Shown in pieces: positions 3,997 through 63,610 of a DNA stretch of 64,000 nt. The stretch is from Lutjanus erythropterus (lineage: Eukaryota > Chordata > Actinopteri > Lutjaniformes > Lutjanidae). The translations under genes and the position numbers were made by a program. The stretch lies in NCBI GenBank assembly GCA_020091685.1, contig CM034606.1, forward strand, positions 16,647,695 through 16,711,694. The letters are read 5' to 3'. How positions within the stretch are numbered: position 1 is the stretch's first letter; the number at the start of each line of letters is the position of its first letter. The notes under the pieces were generated by a model. That model was not told where the DNA came from, did no database searches, and saw nothing but the letters and a program-made list of their open reading frames with translations.

Positions 3997-4961
3997 TTAG
4001 ACTGGATTGCACCAATAAATATTCATTTAATCCGAGATTATTTTAGCAAAACTAGGTGCAAAAACAAGCAAATCCAGATTTAAACTTGAGCAGAGCTCTG
4101 TTGCACAATTAAAAACTAATCTCCATTTGGTAAAGTTTAGTGATGTAAACCAAAATTCAAGAGTTTCCTCCTTACCAAAATTTAAATAAATAAATAAATT
4201 AATAAATTAATTAATGCTGATGGGATCTTTAGGGTTAACTTTTGGCTGCTCTGTATCCCACAATAAAACATTGCATTATTCACTAGATAGCTTAAAAGCT
4301 AACAAAACATTAGATTGTTTGCTAATTAGCTAAAAAGTTAACAAAATACTACATAATATGTTTGCAAGCTAAAAAGTTGACAAAACATTGTGTTGTTTTC
4401 TTGCTGAAAAGTTTGAACAATGTTTTATTGTTTGCTAGTTAGCTAAAAAGTTAACAAAGCATGGAACTGTTTGCTAGCTAGCTAAAAAGCTAACAAAATA
4501 TAACACCGTTGGCTGGCAAGCTAAAAAGTTTACAAAAAAATTTCATTGTTTGCTAGCTAGCTATAAAGTTAACATAACAACATTGTTTGCTGGCTAGCTA
4601 AAGAGTTAACAAAAAATTGTATTGTTTGCTATCTAGCTAAAAATTTAGCAAAACATAACATTGTTTGTTTGCTAGCTAAACAGGTAGTTAGCCTGGTTAA
4701 CTTGCTCAAGATGGCTGAGAACAGAGAATAATTTTGCTCAGTCTATTTTAAAAAGGCAGTTATTTTTAAAGTTAAATCTCCTGAAGTGTTAATTTAAAGT
4801 TAATACTGAATTACAGTTTTAACTGGAATGGTTTAAATTTAATCTTTCTTAATTTTAAGATTAGTAGATTAGTTTTAAAGTTTGAGGCAACATAGTTTAA
4901 AGTGAAACTATGATTTAATCTGGTTGAAAAAATAATCCTTATTGGTGTGGCCCAGCCTTAA
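3997..4961 (+). repeat. MITE with terminal inverted repeats, copy A (carries a minisatellite)
   Basis: The left end reads 'ttagactggattgcaccaa' and the right end 'ttggtgtggcccagcctta'. These are near inverse complements, giving a TIR of about 28 bp with the core ACTGGGCTGCACCAA. The interior is AT-rich with repeated 'aatccagatttaaac' motifs shared with copies at 8573-9106, 29487-29874 and 62232-62400. There is no open frame of note, so it is non-autonomous. This copy is unusually long because of an internal tandem array. Confidence 0.7.
4283..4692 (+). repeat. Minisatellite, about 9 degenerate units of about 45 bp
   Basis: The unit is roughly 'gtttgctagctagctaaaaagttaacaaaacat' plus a variable tail ending 'tgtatt'. 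Units diverge by a few substitutions and small indels (gctagttagc, gctggctagc, gctatctagc). The array sits inside the MITE at 3997-4961. A related one-to-two-unit segment in the other orientation is inside the MITE at 8573-9106. Confidence 0.85.
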
Positions 4962-9363: not shown

Positions 9364-12300
9364 TTAAATGTCTATGGCAGTTTTGTCCTCTCTTGTCTGT
9401 CCGCTGCCCAGCCGTCTTCGACCGTCCAGAAGAAACGACAGCACTATAACCCAGCGCTGTCCTAGTGACCTCTGTCGCACCGAGCTTTCACACTGTCTGA
9501 AGTAAGTGGTCGTCCCCGTGGCGATGGCATCAAACTGCTCGGTCAGTAGCCACCCCTCCCAAAGGAGTGTCAGAGCGTTCATGTTCATCATGACCACGAC
9601 CCAGAACTCCTCCCCTAACAACGTGAGCCACAGCGACAAGCTGCGGTTGCCCGCAGGCATCTTGTCATACAGGTAACTTGTTGCCGTGGCAACAAAAAGA
9701 AGGTGTGCAATCACCATAGAGAGGATGAAGAGGAGGAAGAGGCGGTGGTTACCCCGGCCGATGCAGCGGTTGAGGAAAAGGCAGTGGTGGTCGTAGTCTT
9801 TAATGCACACGTCACACAGCTTGCAGTGTTTAGTGAAGTCGGGCGGAAACAGCTGAGAGGAGTGAAGAGAGAATGTGGTATCAAAAAAGTATCGTTCAAT
9901 AACCGTTATCAATGTCAAGACATTGGTAACAAAATTTTTAGGATGCTCTACCTTTCAGAAATTGTGCTGTTTGTCTGCTTGTTTGTCTTTCAGAAGGATA
10001 ACTGAAAACTACTGGCCTAATTTTTATGAAACTTAGTGGAAAGATGTAGCGTTGACAAAGGGAGAACTCACTGAATTTAGGAGCAGATCAGAGTCATTTT
10101 CACTTCTGTTAACATTGTGAGACAGGACGGCGGAACAAATGTCATACATCTTCAAATCCAGTAGAAAAAAAGTAAAGTTCAATACTGAGAAAACAGATGT
10201 ATAATTTGCAGACGCCGCACTGAATACTTTGGCCCATGGCTGTGATACGTTAACATCACCGCCATATTGGTCCCATCAGGACTGGCCTGTGAACACAGAT
10301 GTAAATGGGAAGCTGCTGTATTTCTGGATAAAAAGCACTAGCACCAGTACAACGACGCCATAATTCTAACAGTGCTTTTTTCTCAAACAATGGTATGTCT
10401 ATGGGAACATAAATACACATATATTATGCAACTAATCACACCCAAATGTGAATTGTCTGTAATAAACTCTAGCAAAGTGTTCAAACTTTACAAGAAGTAA
10501 AAATATTGACTGCAAAGTTTGTGCTTTGTCTGCACCCTTCATGTGTCCTTCTAGTTTTACTTTGGGATGAAAATCATCTTGCAGAGACTCAATCACCATA
10601 AATATTTCATCGCATTTATTGTCACATCATTGATTCTTTGTGACAGCTGAGATTTTAACAGGGGCGTGTCAAGAACTTTGTGAAGGAGAGAAAGGCTGCA
10701 TGTTCATTTCCAGATTTAGACAGAAGGACTGATGATGCGAAAACACAAAGGCTCCCTGAACGACAACCAGCGTGAATGTCTTACCTCACAGTACGGACAG
10801 AACCTGTGAGGGCTCTGGTTGTTCTCCACCAGGTCGGCAATACAGGAGAACCGAGGATCTGCATCTGCTCTGTCCAACGTCCCTGGGTCCTGAGTCAGAA
10901 CCTTACAGAACAAACCGAGGACTAGAGAGAAGTGGACCATCGACACTTGGACCAGAGCACTGGTTGGCCACACACATTCAAAAGGTTAAGGATCAACACT
11001 TCTATCTTTAAAAAACAAAGTCCAAGTTTACATTTGTCATACTGTGTATATTCACAAAAAAGATTGTGGAGTGTCCAAAATATAAAGGATTTATTATCAG
11101 GGAAAGATGAATGTGCTCACCAAATTTCACTATAATCCACCTATTAAACTTGAATTTCATATCTTATGGAAAATTTTTCTGGCTACTGGAGGAACGGTCA
11201 GAGGATTAAGAAAAACACTGGGATTCATTTTCTGAGGACCATGACTCTTATGCGTAATTAGTCATAGACCACAATGCTGGTTTTTGACCATATTTAGGAA
11301 TCATCCTGAGATGACAGTGATTATCAGTACAAATTTTTAAAGCAAACTGACTTTTGGTTGAGACATAAGTATTGAAGGGACCGGTGGCGTGGTGGTGCTG
11401 CGACTGGGATGCGAGAGACGGGCGTTTATTTGTTGGAAAAGTTGTTTTGTTTCAGTTTGTTACATCTGTCAAGTGTTTCAAGTTTGTCAGTGTGTCGAGT
11501 TAAGTTTGGAACAAGAGTAACACGACGGGGAAAAGGAAGCGTGTTGCATTGATGTTACTCTTGGCGCTGATTACATCCGGCGCCTGTTCACAATACGACA
11601 CCCCCACGGTGCTTCATGGGGCACACGACTACGTGCTGTGATTGTGCAGCAGGGACTGGCTGCCGTCCCTACAAAAAAAAAAAAAAAGCTGCACCAGAAC
11701 TGGGCCTGCTGGAGAAAGCCAGCAGCGGGAAGGAGGGAGGAGGGGCAGCGTTCAACGCCATCTCCACTGAAGGTACAACAAGCCACTTCTCAGCAACACT
11801 CACTCTCTGAGGAAACAAGATGGAGACGCTGCCTCATGATCTACACAGAGAACTGGCTTCATGGTTACTTTCCTGACCCAGTGGTTCAGGTACAAGGCTT
11901 CTCAAATGTTCGTATGGTTGTATGGAGGGTGATACTGTATATTAACTAGAGTTTGATTGTACATATGTGGTCATGTTGTCTGTGTTCTCTCAATTATCCT
12001 CTACAAATGACTCCTGAGGGGGACAATAATGGCTAATCTAATCTCATCAAGACCAACCAACACTGAGATCCTCATGTCATACAACTAGCAGAAAAAAAAC
12101 AGCAAACTAGAATTAAAAAAGTCACATGATACAAAAATATGCATGGGTATGAAGCTTCACGTGTGTAACATTTCTTAAGGATATTAGGCATTATTTTTCC
12201 ATAGAAGCAGAGCAAGGAGTGGAACAAGCCAGCTATGAGGGTTCCCAAGTAGATTGGGTTGGGTAACCTGGAAGGAGGACAGATGATATCTCAACAGAGA

Positions 12301-12726
12301 TCTAACAAACAGTGAAATATGTGGACCTTCTGATAAAAATGCACTACAGTTTGTCGAACCTTTGGTACGTGGTCATGCGGTGGTACTGTGTGAAGATGCT
12401 TCTGGCGAGCCAGGGGAACAGCAAAGCACAGATTAGCCCCCCGTAGCCTCCCAGCATGGCTGCTATGAGCAGGATGGCAGCTCCGCTCAGGGTTGGAAAG
12501 AACAGTGTCCAGTAATACAAAACTGGTGAGGAGAGACACACAAAGAAGTGTTAAAAAAAATCAAGGCACATGCAACACTTTAAATGTCACTGTGCCAATA
12601 TTACCATCACCATTGTCATCATCACTAAACGAGACTACAGAGTTATATTTACCATGAGACTCTCTGGGCTTGTGGTGTATGGGCTCATTAATGTACCGAC
12701 TCAGTAGCTTGGTGAGTTGCTGATGT
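9364..12726 (-). CDS. Palmitoyltransferase exons 6-10: membrane segments and DHHC catalytic domain
   Basis: Exons 6-8 encode two or more hydrophobic segments (LYWTLFFPTLSGAAILLIAA; LIAGLFHSLLCFYG). Exon 9 adds another and the first Cys-rich motif, HRFCPYCE. Exon 10 gives HCKLCDVC, then catalytic D-H-H-C at about residues 422-425 (Cys425), NRCIGRGNH and two further membrane helices. The zinc-binding Cys/His positions of the DHHC domain are all present, so the enzyme looks active. The TTxE motif that usually follows the last helix is not intact: the matching site reads GTTTYFRQ. The C-terminus is short and basic. Confidence 0.85.
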
Positions 12727-15700
12727 CTGGAGAAAAAGACACAGTATAGAAATGTATTAATCAGCATCAGGATCCCAGGAGAGAAAGGCAATCTGGAAAT
12801 GCGAACATACTGGATATTTAAAGGTACTGTGGGGGTGTTACTATCCCATGCAGTCAGTGTTTTTCCAGTTTTTTTTTTAGAGACAGCACATTCACCTAAA
12901 TGTTTTCCCCTGTTTGCTGAGGTCCAGCGGTGTCAGGCCGCTGTGGTTCTTCTGATAGAGCATCCCGCAGCCTGTTCTCTGCAGCAGCGTCCAGCACACC
13001 TCCACTCCACCCCTCTCTGCTGCAACGTGAAGCGCTGTCGCCCCCTGCTGGTCGACTGCATCCACAGCACATCTCTGACACACACAAGCAAGAGGGATGA
13101 GATGCACAGCTGCTAAAACATAATCAAATCTGCATTGGGTCCTGTTTCACAAGGCATCTTTAACCTCTTACAAATGTGGGATGTAACAACATAAAACCAC
13201 AATAAAAACTCCACGTTACTGTATCTATTAAAAAAAGGTCCTTTATTAAATACCAAATCTGTGTGATGTAATCGTTTTTTGGATCATCACAGTCTGATAC
13301 AGTATTGAGACTTTTTTTAATGCCGATATTCAATATATTGTTACATCTTAACCAACAATTCTATACATAAAACTATATCAAACACAGAAAAGCAGCAAAT
13401 TCAAGGAGCTGCAGACAGAGTATTCAGTTCTTCTTTAATCCCACTGTTTTGCCCACAAAACAGTCATTACAAATTCATGCTGCGCAGCCAAACCTTGTTA
13501 AAAAAAATCACAGAACTTTATTTTAAATTCAATTAGAGGTCCAAATCTGTCAGGCTAAATTTGTGGAAAGAGGTATAAAAGGATGCATAAGACATCCAAA
13601 CATGTTCCATTTACAGACATTTTCATTTAATGACATAGTGCACTTAAAAACATGGATTAGTGGGTTATAAGACTAAGGCAATTAGGTAATATTTTACATA
13701 GTCTAAACTTTATATGGCTTCAAACACAACTATGGCTGTCATGATATCAGAATTTCACTTCTCAGTTATTTTGGCCTTAAGAATTCACAATAAACATATT
13801 AGATTACAGAAGAACAAAGTAAGTATCAGTAAAATTCATCTTTAACCTTGTTTTATTGTGCGGTTTGTCTCTTTTTTGGCAAATGAATTACACTTGAAAT
13901 ACGAATGTAGGGAGGTGCAGAGAGAGTTTGCAATCATCCCTGTACAAAAGTGTAATCCAATCCAATTACACTTGGACTATGGATAGAGAAAAGGCAACCA
14001 GATGAACTGATAAACAAAAAAAATACTTTCAAAAATATTTTACATGCAGCTAATCAATTAACTTCAACCAACCAACATCGACCCGTCCTGTTCTGTTTGT
14101 CTAAGATTTGTCAACACACCTTCCCTTTCCCTTTCCATCCTACCTCATCCCTCCCTGTTTATCCCTAACATTCCTTCAGCCTCTCTTCCCTCGGGTGGAA
14201 ACACGCCTGACAAGAAACCCCCACTCTGAGTCTTCCTCCACCCCGTCTTCAGTACAAACCTCAGACCGGCCTAACAGACGTCCTTCTTCCACCCTCACCC
14301 CTTCCCTCACATCCAATGGAGTACTGCAGTGATCACGTTTTTTGTAGGAAACCTGGATTTTAGCATCGCTCTGGTTTCCTCCACAAAAAGTCAATAGGAT
14401 TTTCCCACTGGATTTTGGAAACATAAATGGAATCGCTAGAGGTAAAAAAAACTAATGCTAGGCTATAAATGAATTACACAGTGGTCACATGAATTCATAT
14501 CACCCCCACTAAGTGATGTTTAATGTCCCAGGCGACCTTTACGGCCTCATTTAGCCACCAACCAGGTCTTTTGAGACACAAAAAAGTGTCACAAGTGAGG
14601 TAATGACTGAGACCTTATTTCAGACAAACAACAAAAAACCCCAAAACGTTAAAAAAAAACCCATTGACCTCAAGACAAGGGAAGTGAAAGTGCTAATATG
14701 GCAACTCATCTCCTTGTTTTAAGGCTAATTCCTGCAGCATTATTATTATACATCCTTAATTCACATTAAACTAGGTATTTTTAAAGTCTGAGACTGTGGG
14801 CAAAAAGCCCCTTACTTAATTTGCTATTTCAATTCCTGCATGTCTATGTGTTCATGATTATGTGATTTGACCCCACAGACAGTCAAGAACTGTGCAAAGA
14901 TAAACAAATATTGCTGTTTTACTTAACTTCCAATTACATGACAAAGGTCTACAAAGGCACTTAATAGTTTCTGACTCAGGGAAAAACAGTAAAAACCCCA
15001 TTTCTGTATCTCTGAACTATCTCAGTAATCAAATCACACATATTTAGACTCTTCTATGTGTGTTCCTTTTGATATTTAAAGAAATAACTAATGTTTTTTT
15101 TTAAATTTTCATTCACTGAGCCTCCCCTGAAATAGTCTTTGAAAACTTGTGCATTACACCTTTAAATGAAATACTGTTGTTTTTTCATTGTGTTGCTTTG
15201 TTCTTCACCAGCAGTGACCACACCTTGCAAGTGGAGCTATAAGATAAAGTTTTATCTTCCTGCTGGTCAGTTAGAGCATGTGAGAGGGAGACAGAGTGAA
15301 CTGAAGACAATATTGTACCTGGTCTCTGAGCAAATAGCGCACCACCTCTGTGTTGCCTGTGGATGCAGCCAGGTGAAGCGGTGTCACCTGGTACATGTCT
15401 GTGTCTGAGAACCGGAACATTCCTGTCTCCCACAAATAGTGAACTGCAACACTGAGAAATAAAATGAACAGTTAGTGCATGCATGGTGTATTTTACAAAA
15501 CAAACAGATTACAATAATAGCAAAGTTTGTGGTGTGTTTTTCTCATGAACTCACATGTTGCCCCCGGTGACAGCATGATGCAGAGACGTTTTTCCCTGCA
15601 GGTCTATGAGGCGCAAATCAGCTCCATACTGCATCATTTGGTGTATGATATATATGTTCCCCTGCCTGAGAGAAGTCAAAAATACAAACTATTATTACAG

Positions 15701-16830
15701 ACTAACTTTGATGCAATTACTAGCATTAAAAACAACACTTGATTCATCTTTCAATACTGCAGAAAAAGTTTTAAGAACATGGATAACGAGGGGAAACACG
15801 GAGTTAAGTTTATTTCACTAAAATTCAATTTGAACCCTTTTTTATCAGTTGCAATATCAGGACGTGAACTTTTTTCGGCTTCTGAAGTGAGGAATGCCAG
15901 AAAAAGTTTGGTTTAACACCCAAACATGTGACTACTGCTCACCTGCAGCCAAAATGAAAGGCTGTCTGTCCTGCATCACATCTCAGGTTGGGGTCAGCTC
16001 CATTACTGAGGAAAAGGTCGACGAGGGCGCGGTTACCATGGAGGGCAGCGTAGTGGAGCGGGGTGAAACCACCCCAGCCTGGATGAAGACAAACACATGA
16101 CAGTCAGGTTTGAAGATGCAGGCTCTGTGACTAGCAGTATAAAAGCCTGACGTAAATGCACGCTCTGCCAGCCTGTTGATCTTGAAAACCCTGTGGAGTC
16201 GGGGTTAGGGTTCCCTTTGGCACAATGTGACTTTGTGCCGTGTTGTCACAGGATCTGTCCATCTAGATCTGTGCCAGCCCATCTCACAGAGGAGCTGCAG
16301 CAGGGTTCAGTTTCCCCCTCTGGCAGGGAGACAAAATCACATCAGGACACACTGGTGGTGCAAGGTAAAGTTCAAAGTGTTCCTTTGTAAATGACATATT
16401 GTAAATTTAGACTTGCTCAGGGAAATATTTGCACAGTATAACTTATCCTGGTTATATGATGCAGATTTAAGATAAAATGTTTATGACAGACAGATGTGAC
16501 AGGGGTGTAACAGGTTTGTTCTCTTGGTAAACAATATCTATCAACAGTTTTCTGGCTTCAAAATGAGACTGACAGTTAAAAGGCTAAAAGTCTGTTTTAT
16601 GCTGACAGTAACAGAGGAAGTACTTGGCCTGTAGTTTGTCAAATATAAATCAGAGAGCAACGCTGACCGGATCAACATGTGATTTTTATTACGTTTCAGT
16701 CTGTCTTACCTTTTTGCTTGAGGACTGATCGATCATTTTGAAGGAAGTGTATGCACTGTTCAATGTTTCCTCTCTGTATACAGTCAAATATGTCTCCGCC
16801 GCTAACGGAGCACACAGGCATCGGATGCAT
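9364..16830 (-). CDS. Ankyrin-repeat DHHC palmitoyltransferase (Akr1/ZDHHC13/17-like), 10 exons, complete
   Basis: Minus-strand exons in order: 16830-16710, 16078-15943, 15665-15555, 15451-15319, 13074-12896, 12726-12653, 12522-12348, 12267-12185, 10975-10785, 9852-9364 (stop TAA). All junction phases agree and give 563 residues. The protein should transfer palmitate from palmitoyl-CoA to cysteines of membrane-associated proteins, probably in the Golgi or endosomes. It has about five ankyrin repeats (residues 40-230), membrane segments, a Cys-rich DHHC domain and two more membrane segments. The layout matches Akr1, ZDHHC17 and ZDHHC13, but the sequence is not a close ZDHHC17 orthologue (DYDHHCL replaces FDHHCPW) and ZDHHC13 has DQHC instead. 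Start chosen: the first ATG (MHPMPV). Uncertain points: the exon 7 donor (ending at 12348 or about 14 nt earlier, both in frame) and the acceptor of exon 9. Confidence 0.85.
10976..12184 (-). other. Probable U12-type (minor spliceosome) intron of the palmitoyltransferase gene
   Basis: Exon 8 ends ...ATGCCTA and no GT donor continues the frame correctly. The next bases are ATATCCTTAA, an exact match to the U12 AT-AC 5' splice-site consensus ATATCCTT. Near the far end is GATCCTTAACC (branch A about 10986), matching the U12 branch-site consensus TTCCTTAAC. The frame-preserving exon 9 start is at 10975 (giving S-V-W-P-T-S), about 10 nt past the branch A, so the intron would end in AT rather than AC. 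The only AC nearby is out of frame. Confidence 0.65.
11390..11960. other. GC-richer insert of unknown nature inside the U12-type intron
   Basis: This block is more GC-rich than the flanking intron, contains an A15 run (11671-11685) and has overlapping short open frames on both strands with no family match. It may be an old repeat or retrocopy fragment. I cannot classify it. Confidence 0.3.
12896..16830 (-). CDS. Palmitoyltransferase exons 1-5: N-terminus and ankyrin repeats
   Basis: Exon 1 encodes a 40-residue leader (SGGDIFDCIQRGNIEQCIHF is the first helical pair). Exons 2-5 encode successive ankyrin units with hallmark motifs: GFTPLHYAALHGN, GQTAFHFGCRQGN, GKTSLHHAVTGGN, QVTPLHLAASTGN and GATALHVAAERGG, then a degenerate GLTPLDLSKQG. 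Each unit ends with the usual V..LL...AD segment. In ZDHHC13/17 the ankyrin block binds substrates, so a similar role is inferred. The intron between exons 4 and 5 (13075-15318) is the longest in this half and shows nothing gene-like. Confidence 0.88.
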
Positions 16831-36100: not shown

Positions 36101-39100
36101 AACTAAGTACAAATATTTTGTTGCTGCACTTAAGTAGATTTTTCAGGAAGCAGTATTTTTGTATTTATTTTTCTGACAACGTTTTACTTTCACTCCCTAT
36201 ATTTGAACACAAATATCTGTACTTTCTATCCCTTACATTTTCAAAACAGGCTTGTTCCTTTAGCTTTATGCATTTTATAGGAATTACTGATTATTTTGCA
36301 TCATTATGTGCCACCTTCCCAACATCAAGACATTTCAGCCTAAATGGATGGGACAATGACACACAGAAAAGACAATTTCTCTGCGTATACATCAGTGCTT
36401 ATCAAGCATAATGGACAAAACAAGACAAAAATGACAAAATACGATGAAAGATTGCATGAAAAAAAGTCAAAAAAAGATGTGATATGACAAAAAAAGATCT
36501 AACAAATATCGAAACAAAAAGTGCAACAAAATGAAAAACAACATAAAAGATGCGACAAGACAAACAACACAGACAAAACAAGATTAAAGACTATCATACA
36601 CACATTTACTTGTGTAAAGAAGTTGAAGTATCCTTAGTTGAAGTTGAAATTAAATGTCTTTAATTAGTCTAATGTGGGTCTAATAATGTGTAATAAAGAA
36701 CATTATTTGTAATTTTTGTCTAATATAATGCAAAGTACAGCTTGTTACGTCTTATTAGTGTACTGTAAAGTACGATCAGAATCTGTTATCTGTTATAATT
36801 TGTCATATGTATGATTGTGTCTGGTGAATTCACATATTTCCTGTCCACTTGGCCTGTCTGACTCCTCTCTTGTGTTTTTCAGTCTGTGCTGAAGGTGCTG
36901 GAGAGCCCAAACAGCTGGGATGCCTTCAGGAGAGCAGGAGGCTTCACAGGCCTGCTGTCTCTAGTGATCGACATGGAAGGAGCTCTGTCCGACCCTCCTC
37001 AGGGAGAAGTGTGGAAGTCACTTGGGCAACAAGCGCTGCTGGACCTCCTCCTCCTCGCTCTCCACATCCTGGCCCTGGCTGTGCACCTTCACACAGTAAA
37101 TGCACACCATTTTGAGACAGGTGGCTTTTATGAAAGACTTGGGGAAGCTCTGCTCCAGCTGGGCTGCTTCCACACTGCAAAAGAGAAGTTTGATGGAGAG
37201 GAGAGCTCGTGTACCAAGTCTGCAGAGGACAACCAGTCCCCCGGGAAGAGCTTCCACCAGTTTGTTGAGTTAGCAGGAGCCTCTGAAGCTCCGTCCTCTC
37301 CCTCTACCACACCGCAGCCCAAGCTGCCCGTCACTCTTCGGACTTGTATAAGACTGCTCTCCTACCTCGACCAGTTCGCCACAGGGACCTACTCTCCTCT
37401 GGAGTTAAACTTGGGACAGAAGCCTGAGAATGGGTGTGATGAAGATAAAGAGAAACTAAATGGACCAGCAGGGCCTGAAGGAGTTCATTCAGGGTCCCCC
37501 CCTGTCCACTTGGGATCAAGTCTGCAGTCTGTGGAGGAGACACAGGGAAGATCCAGAAACGCAGCACTCAGTATCTCCACAGTTTGCACAGAGTCTCAGT
37601 ACAGGTGGATATTTCTAACCATTTGTAGGTGGTGTTAGAATCAGCCATATTCCTCTAAGATAAATTTCCTCTACATTCATGTGATGCATGAGGTCATATG
37701 TGATCTCATGAATATCAACCCATATTTTTTTTCTTTTTTTGGCTTACAGTAGGTTCACCTGCGATCATGTCATTCTTCATCCGGGAGCAATCAGAGTTAT
37801 AATGGCGCTTCTTCCGTCAGTGTTTACTCCTGAGGACCCACAGGTACCTTTCCAGACTGGAACCATTGACATAAATAAAGACAGAAAATGTGTCTCTACC
37901 ATTTGGAGGCACGGTCTGTTACAGTATGACTTATACTGCAGCCAGTCACCAGGAGATGATGGAGATGTTTTGGCTTCAGTTTTGGGGAGCTGTCATGATG
38001 TCCATCTTTATATATGTCAGTGACTGGAACACCCTCTAAATGTTGCATGCTATTTAAGACGTTATACAGTCCCTCCAGGAATTTGTGATGTTGCGATTGC
38101 AGCAATTCATGCATATTCAACCATTCTCTGTGAGTTCTTCAAGACCATGCAAGTTTGTCCAGTCACAGCAACTTTTCTTTTATATTTTTTTAATTAAGTA
38201 AGTTTGAGCTCCAAAAAGGGTCTGCTTCTTTGTGGAATACCCCCCAGTTGGACTTTTTCATGTACAAATAAAGCATATTTTGTTAGAATTTTGGCACAAT
38301 CACAGCTTGTTTATTTGCAATTTTCACTTGCTCCAGCTGTTTAGTTGCAAAATAAGCCTAAAAACATTGCATCACTTTTTTTTTTTTAGAAAAGCTGCTG
38401 TGAAATCAGGCATTTTAGGCCACAACAATCCCAAAAAGAATCATGTGAAATCCTGGAGGGACTGTAAAATAGCTCCCCAGGATAAGACAAATGTATTTCT
38501 CTCTCCCAGCTCTCAATGGAGGTCCAGTTCTCGCTGGCGCACCACATCCAGGCCATGGTCAAATCTGAACGAAACCGCCAGGTGATGTGTGAAGGGAGGC
38601 TGGTCTCCACACTCCTGGCCCACTGTCACAGCATGTTACTGGCTCCAAACCACCCGTTACATCTACCTGTTACGCGCATCCTGGAGAAGCTCTCGTCTCA
38701 GGCCATCACACATGCAGACTTCAGGTGAAATGGTGTCAGACACATGGATGTATTTACTGTACTGAAGATGAAGAGGCTGTTGTACTACAATATTCTGTCT
38801 GACATCTGTTTTTTATTTTCTCCTCCTCAGAAAGTTCCTTTGTTTAGGAGACCCTCTCATGTGTTTGGCCGAGAAAACAGCCATGCAGTCACAACCAGAA
38901 TGTCACCCACCAGTCAAAGCGCCTGTTTCAAATGGTGCAGTCTTATTTTTTTTTTTTTTTATAATAACATAATCTTTCAGTTGTTTTATGTCTGCTTTCT
39001 ACTGATGTATGATACATTCAACCCCCTCGTTCTTTAATTTGGTCTTGTTTTTGTGTTGTCTAAACCAGGTCACAGTACAGAGACAGCTGCCTCATCGGGA

Positions 39101-62782: not shown

Positions 62783-63610
62783 TCATTTGATTGGCTTGCG
62801 CTCCACCTTTCTTATTCTCCACACATCTTGATTGACTTTGGCCACTGAGTTTGGTACCATCAGTCCTGAATAAATCCTTATTCTTTTCTCCTCAAACACA
62901 TCACCACCTCCTCCTCCTCTTCCTCCTCTCTCTCTCGTAAGCCGCTCCCTCTGCTCTTTACATTTCTTAAGACATGTCCTACACAGGCTGCTTTCATGGA
63001 CAAGATAAACATCTTCCTCTGGTTCACATTTTTCCTTCGTCATCCCATCTCCATCCCCCTGAGTGAATGATAGAGGGTTTCGTTTCACATTCACCTTACT
63101 GAGGTTACGTAGGGCGGTCAAAAACTCTGGTAGTTTCATGAAGAGGTTATCAAACAGGCCTAACTCCTGGAGGTTGTCCAGAGCGACCATAGTGGGAGGC
63201 AGGGTGTCTAGCTCGTTCATCCCCAGGTTGAGACTCTTCAGGCTGGTGAGAAAACCCAGCGTGGAGGGTAAACCTGCAGAGGTGAGGCGGTTGTTGGAGA
63301 GGTTGAGGTGGGTCAGTCCCGCCAGGTTGCCGATGGACTCGGGGACAGACTCCAGCTTGTTGCTGTGCAGATCGAGCCATCTGAGTGACGAGAGGTTCCC
63401 AATGTTATCTGGGAGTTTCTGTATCAGGTTGCGGCTCAGATCCAACTCATCCACGTTGGTCAGTTTTAGGAGACACTTTGGGAAGATGGTTATACCCATG
63501 TTGCTAAGGGTGAGTCTGCGGTGTCCATCTTGGGTCATCCGTATCGCCTTTTTGGCTGTCTTGAGGGTCACCTTTGTCCCTTTGGCACCTTTTCCCTTTC
63601 CTTTGGGCAT
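62783..63610 (-). CDS. lrrc18: lrrc18: leucine-rich repeat-containing protein 18
   Basis: A single coding exon of 275 residues (human LRRC18 is 261). It starts MPKGKGKGAKGTKVTLKTAK, close to the human MAKGKGPKGKKITLKVA start, and continues RRLTLSNMGITIFPKCLLKL. About six leucine-rich repeats follow (LDLSRNLIQKLP, LDLHSNKLESVP, LNLSNNRLTSAGLP, LNLGMNELDTLP, LGLFDNLFMKLP), then a Cys/Glu tail with a glycine run and a basic end. An acceptor (TTGCAG) at 63615 lies 4 nt before the ATG, so a non-coding 5' exon exists further right. The longer open frame starting at 63778 crosses that acceptor and is rejected. In mammals LRRC18 is testis-expressed and also nested antisense in WDFY4. Confidence 0.95.
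   Translation of the reverse strand: MPKGKGKGAKGTKVTLKTAKKAIRMTQDGHRRLTLSNMGITIFPKCLLKLTNVDELDLSRNLIQKLPDNIGNLSSLRWLDLHSNKLESVPESIGNLAGLTHLNLSNNRLTSAGLPSTLGFLTSLKSLNLGMNELDTLPPTMVALDNLQELGLFDNLFMKLPEFLTALRNLSKVNVKRNPLSFTQGDGDGMTKEKCEPEEDVYLVHESSLCRTCLKKCKEQRERLTRERGGRGGGGGDVFEEKRIRIYSGLMVPNSVAKVNQDVWRIRKVERKPIK

Follow-up and report, generated by a model that had tools for sequence, protein, structure and literature searches.

Minor-class introns are recognized through two short consensus sequences, ATATCCTT at the 5′ splice site and TCCTTAAC at the branch site (PMC2831892). The distance from branch site to 3′ splice site is 10–20 nt, with an optimum of 11–13 nt (PMC8199999; the same optimum appears in PMC6717393), an A at position −2 is highly conserved according to mutational work as summarised in PMC2831892, and a polypyrimidine tract before the 3′ end is usually absent (PMC8199999). 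About 3.8% of orthologous animal minor introns have non-canonical termini, among which AT-AA comes first and AT-AT second (PMC10639083). The CENATAC study included AT-AT introns in its A-type set, and AT-AN minor introns, AT-AT among them, are CENATAC-dependent in human cells and have relatively high basal retention (PMC8280824). A minor intron has also been described in another gene of the DHHC family, ZDHHC8, where it is of the GT-AG subtype, unlike the intron considered here (PMC2831892).

Here we describe a probable AT-AT minor intron, intron 8 of an ankyrin-DHHC palmitoyltransferase gene, in the window, which is the whole stretch of 64,000 nucleotides of Lutjanus erythropterus DNA that was analysed. 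The ZDHHC8 gene is not known to have ankyrin repeats. Intron 8 itself did not turn up in the paper listings and text passages that were searched. The features on which the argument turns are the following.

9364 to 16830, minus strand: gene for an ankyrin-DHHC palmitoyltransferase of 563 aa in 10 coding exons, one open frame on exon joining
12185 to 12267, minus strand: exon 8, 83 nt, with a phase 1 end (...ATG CCT A)
10976 to 12184, minus strand: intron 8, 1209 nt, proposed as U12-type AT-AT from motifs, frame and spacing
12175 to 12184, minus strand: putative U12-type 5′ splice site ATATCCTTAA, containing exact ATATCCTT, the published consensus
10985 to 10992, minus strand: putative U12-type branch site TCCTTAAC, an exact match, likely branch A at 10986 or 10987
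10976 to 10977, minus strand: proposed 3′ terminal dinucleotide AT, from frame, spacing and an A at −2
10785 to 10975, minus strand: exon 9, 191 nt, encoding a hydrophobic segment and a DPG motif
9364 to 9852, minus strand: exon 10, encoding most of the DHHC domain

When the ten exons are joined on the minus strand from 16830 to 9364, they read as 563 residues and a stop in a single frame, and Pfam recognizes ankyrin repeats (Ank_2, E 3.6e-55) and a DHHC domain at residues 392–518 (E 3.3e-28). Exon 9 is open in one frame and has stops in the other two; the open frame aligns with ZDHHC5 (E 2.2e-17) from about the codon at 10946 onward and, beyond a GT-AG intron, continues as the DHHC domain. 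Against solved structures, the best stretches of the whole protein lie in the ankyrin part (best 60 of 453 matches), and the nine NCBIfam families that came up all lie there too, all far below their cut-offs. With exon 10 as query, the viral and genome contig sets gave no relatives. Eight of the gene's nine introns have GT-AG ends, and intron 8 is the sole exception. Among the others, intron 7 (12347–12268, minus strand) pairs a weak GT donor, ACT/GTAGTG, at −0.5 bits with a strong acceptor at 13.5 bits; these and all other bit scores given here rest on approximate U2 donor and acceptor matrices.

An earlier sequence-only reading had placed intron 8 at these coordinates, with these letters, and both proved correct on re-examination. 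It had also found no usable GT at the end of exon 8, and we agree: between 12267 and 12140 the dinucleotide occurs only at 12267, 12225, 12169 and 12160. Exon 8 ends at 12185 (...ATGCCTA), and ATATCCTTAA begins at the very next base, 12184, so that the first eight letters of the intron are an exact instance of RTATCCTT in its ATATCCTT form. At the other end lies an exact TCCTTAAC, with 11 nt from the branch A at 10986 to exon 9. The resemblance of both sites to the minor-class consensus, earlier described as close, is thus exact. Either motif alone proves nothing, since for each the number of copies in the window is close to that expected by chance: on both strands together there are two copies of ATATCCTT and three of TCCTTAAC, where 2.3 are expected of each. 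It is their joint placement that is improbable, with a donor inside a zone of 12 nt where the exon ends and a branch motif in one of 33 places before exon 9, giving p of about 1.4e-7 for the exact motifs and 1.7e-6 for relaxed ones, values that serve as guides since the placement was noticed prior to testing.

Counting against a minor-class intron, the branch site of intron 8 forms a duplex of −6.5 kcal/mol with an assumed fragment of the U12 loop, weaker than the −8.4 kcal/mol of a consensus branch site. From −16 to −5, a stretch made up of the branch motif and CTTTT, 10 of 12 bases are pyrimidines, compared with 7–11 of 12 at the gene's eight other acceptors, so a missing polypyrimidine tract is no argument for the minor class. 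Over the last 40 nt, intron 8 has 22 pyrimidines, the fewest among the nine introns (the others have 25–30). Scored as a U2 acceptor with the approximate matrix, the boundary at 10975 reaches −4.3, due mainly to the missing G. Rfam at gathering scores gave no matches on the whole window, and a tandem-repeat scan listed nothing in intron 8. The eight letters ATCCTTAA are common to the 5′ site (12182–12175) and the branch site (10993–10986) on the minus strand, so that a branch-like motif overlaps the donor.

The proposed 3′ end rests on frame, spacing and the preference for A at −2. Because the last base of exon 8 is the first of a codon, the start of exon 9 has to lie at 10975 or at a distance from it that is divisible by three. 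With a start at 10975 the frame is restored, the intron ends in ...TTGAAT, and its final base lies 10 nt past the A at 10986, just as the sequence-only reading had it. Among the 11 exon starts that lie 10–20 nt from the A at 10986, the frame is kept by four: 10975 (intron ending AT), 10972 (TG), 10969 (GT) and 10966 (GC), the last three at tolerable spacing too. Only 10975, at 11 nt, has an A as the last but one base of the intron. With an exon start one base earlier, at 10976 (10 nt), the intron would end in AA and the frame would be lost. The earlier statement that the nearest AC breaks the frame holds for the next AC downstream (exon start 10962), which is 24 nt from the branch A and leads to a stop after 350 residues; it overlooked another AC, one that TCCTTAAC itself contains (exon start 10984), in frame but just 2 nt past the branch A. 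The exact 3′ junction we infer, the protein fixing the frame and not the junction. An apparent non-AC end could result if the sequence or its assembly is locally wrong near GTGTGTG.

Taken together, the exact signals, the frame and the spacing make it highly probable that intron 8 is a U12-dependent, A-type (AT-AN) intron with AT-AT ends, and a U12-type intron that starts with AT and ends otherwise than in AC, as first proposed, is the best-supported reading of the sequence. Motifs, spacing and frame are what is seen directly, and from them we infer use of the minor spliceosome. In the mechanism that we propose, U11 would read ATATCCTT at 12184 and U12 would read TCCTTAAC at 10992, and in the second step exon 8, with its phase 1 A, would be joined to exon 9 at the end with the best spacing, ...TTTTGAAT/GTGTGTGG, which is 11 nt beyond the branch A. 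The junction codon would then be AGT (Ser). It would lie in the short loop that links two hydrophobic segments, presumably within the membrane, and the full 563-residue enzyme would result. By analogy with the published work on human AT-AN introns, splicing of intron 8 may depend on CENATAC.

Compared with the AT-AT members of the AT-AN subtype (PMC8280824, PMC10639083), intron 8 has in common the ATATCCTT 5′ site, the TCCTTAAC branch site, the short branch-to-exon spacing, the AT start and, probably, the non-AC end, and no sequence difference was seen in the one genome considered. Canonical AT-AC U12-type introns have the same 5′ site and branch consensus; intron 8 differs from them in its probable AT end, with no in-frame AC within the published spacing. 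Since AT-AT is the second commonest non-canonical ending in animals, intron 8 would be another case of a known, uncommon kind, and the rarity that the sequence-only reading implied for non-AC ends was overstated, as AT-AN minor introns, AT-AT included, are an established subtype.

Among the alternatives, the one that survives best, though improbable, keeps the minor spliceosome and moves the 3′ end to another in-frame position: AT-TG with exon 9 starting at 10972 (14 nt) or 10978 (8 nt), or AT-AA with a start at 10963 (23 nt). Each of the three keeps the frame, the proteins being 559–564 residues long, and AT-AA has in its favour that it is the commonest non-canonical pair of minor termini in animals (PMC10639083). 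The two TG ends, however, are without the conserved A at −2, and the spacing of 10–20 nt is exceeded by the AA end at 10963 and not reached by the TG end at 10978.

A major-spliceosome intron is very unlikely. With acceptors from 11300 to 10930 there are 13 in-frame GT/GC-AG pairs (29 in-frame pairs in all, the other 16 being AT-AC, of which 12 were listed), and such an intron would use one of the 13, for example the GT donor at 12160 with an exon start at 10945. The pair 12160/10945 is in frame, the frame of exon 8 stays open for 37 codons beyond 12185, and the GT at 12160, at 3.2 bits on the approximate matrix, is a better donor than that of intron 7 (−0.5 bits), but it is without a good in-frame acceptor. 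Donor and acceptor of this pair, the best of the in-frame GT/GC-AG pairs, together reach 3.0 bits on the approximate matrices, and those of the eight other introns 9.9–22.4, so that among the pairs found no adequate GT donor and AG acceptor stand together in frame. The 12160/10945 pair would moreover place NILKKCYTL instead of SVWPTSALVQV between the hydrophobic segments, and a major-class reading leaves two exact U12 signals unexplained. The GT-AG junctions that were found elsewhere in the sequence are weak or alter the protein.

Equally doubtful is a frameshifting AT-AC intron of the U12 type with its end at 10964–10963 (exon start 10962), whether as a truncated product of the gene or allele or through an assembly indel. 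That AC exists, and AC is the usual partner of AT, but its 24 nt from the branch A lie outside the range of 10–20 nt, and the 350 residues that result are without the DHHC domain, though the downstream frame is intact and homologous. Least credible is an AT-AC intron ending at the AC inside TCCTTAAC and served by a different branch site: the exon start at 10984 is in frame and gives a 566-residue protein, but the perfect branch site would go unused and, apart from one that overlaps the donor, no further branch motif, exact or with one mismatch, lies in the intron.

An additional exon within intron 8, flanked by two minor introns, finds no support among motifs with at most one mismatch, as a second exact U12 donor or branch motif is absent from the intron. 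Allowing one mismatch, the only other donor resembling RTATCCTT is AAATCCTT at 11092, which precedes the branch site by 100 nt, and the only other match to TCCTTAAC or TCCTTGAC is TCCTTAAG, which overlaps the donor.

Should the U12-type AT-AT reading hold, the few AT-AT minor introns would gain one well-marked candidate, without a change in how minor splicing is understood. Intron 8 would serve as a natural test case for the part that frame and branch spacing play in selecting a non-AC end. Annotation restricted to GT-AG, GC-AG and AT-AC ends would probably place the boundary of exon 9 wrongly. If the intron were retained, translation would stop after 374 residues, before the DHHC domain. It is conceivable, and rather improbable, that the weak AT-AT end acts as a regulated switch, slow A-type splicing leading to retention and the output of enzyme tracking CENATAC-dependent minor splicing; the retained form would then yield a protein of 374 residues that has the ankyrin and membrane parts and is without the catalytic DHHC domain.

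Elsewhere in the window, a single open frame on the minus strand at 62786–63610 encodes leucine-rich repeats (LRR_8, E 2.1e-21) and presumably resembles LRRC18. On the plus strand, several open stretches between 34404 and 57628 have the appearance of exons from a single large gene. Four of them were scanned: 36862–37635 has an Arm_4 match (E 4.7e-8) and the other three have none. WDFY4 adjoins LRRC18 in vertebrates, and on that ground we assume that the 34404–57628 stretches may belong to a WDFY-family gene. At 4265–4680 lies a diverged tandem array of 10.8 copies, in which the repeat unit is about 39 bases long.
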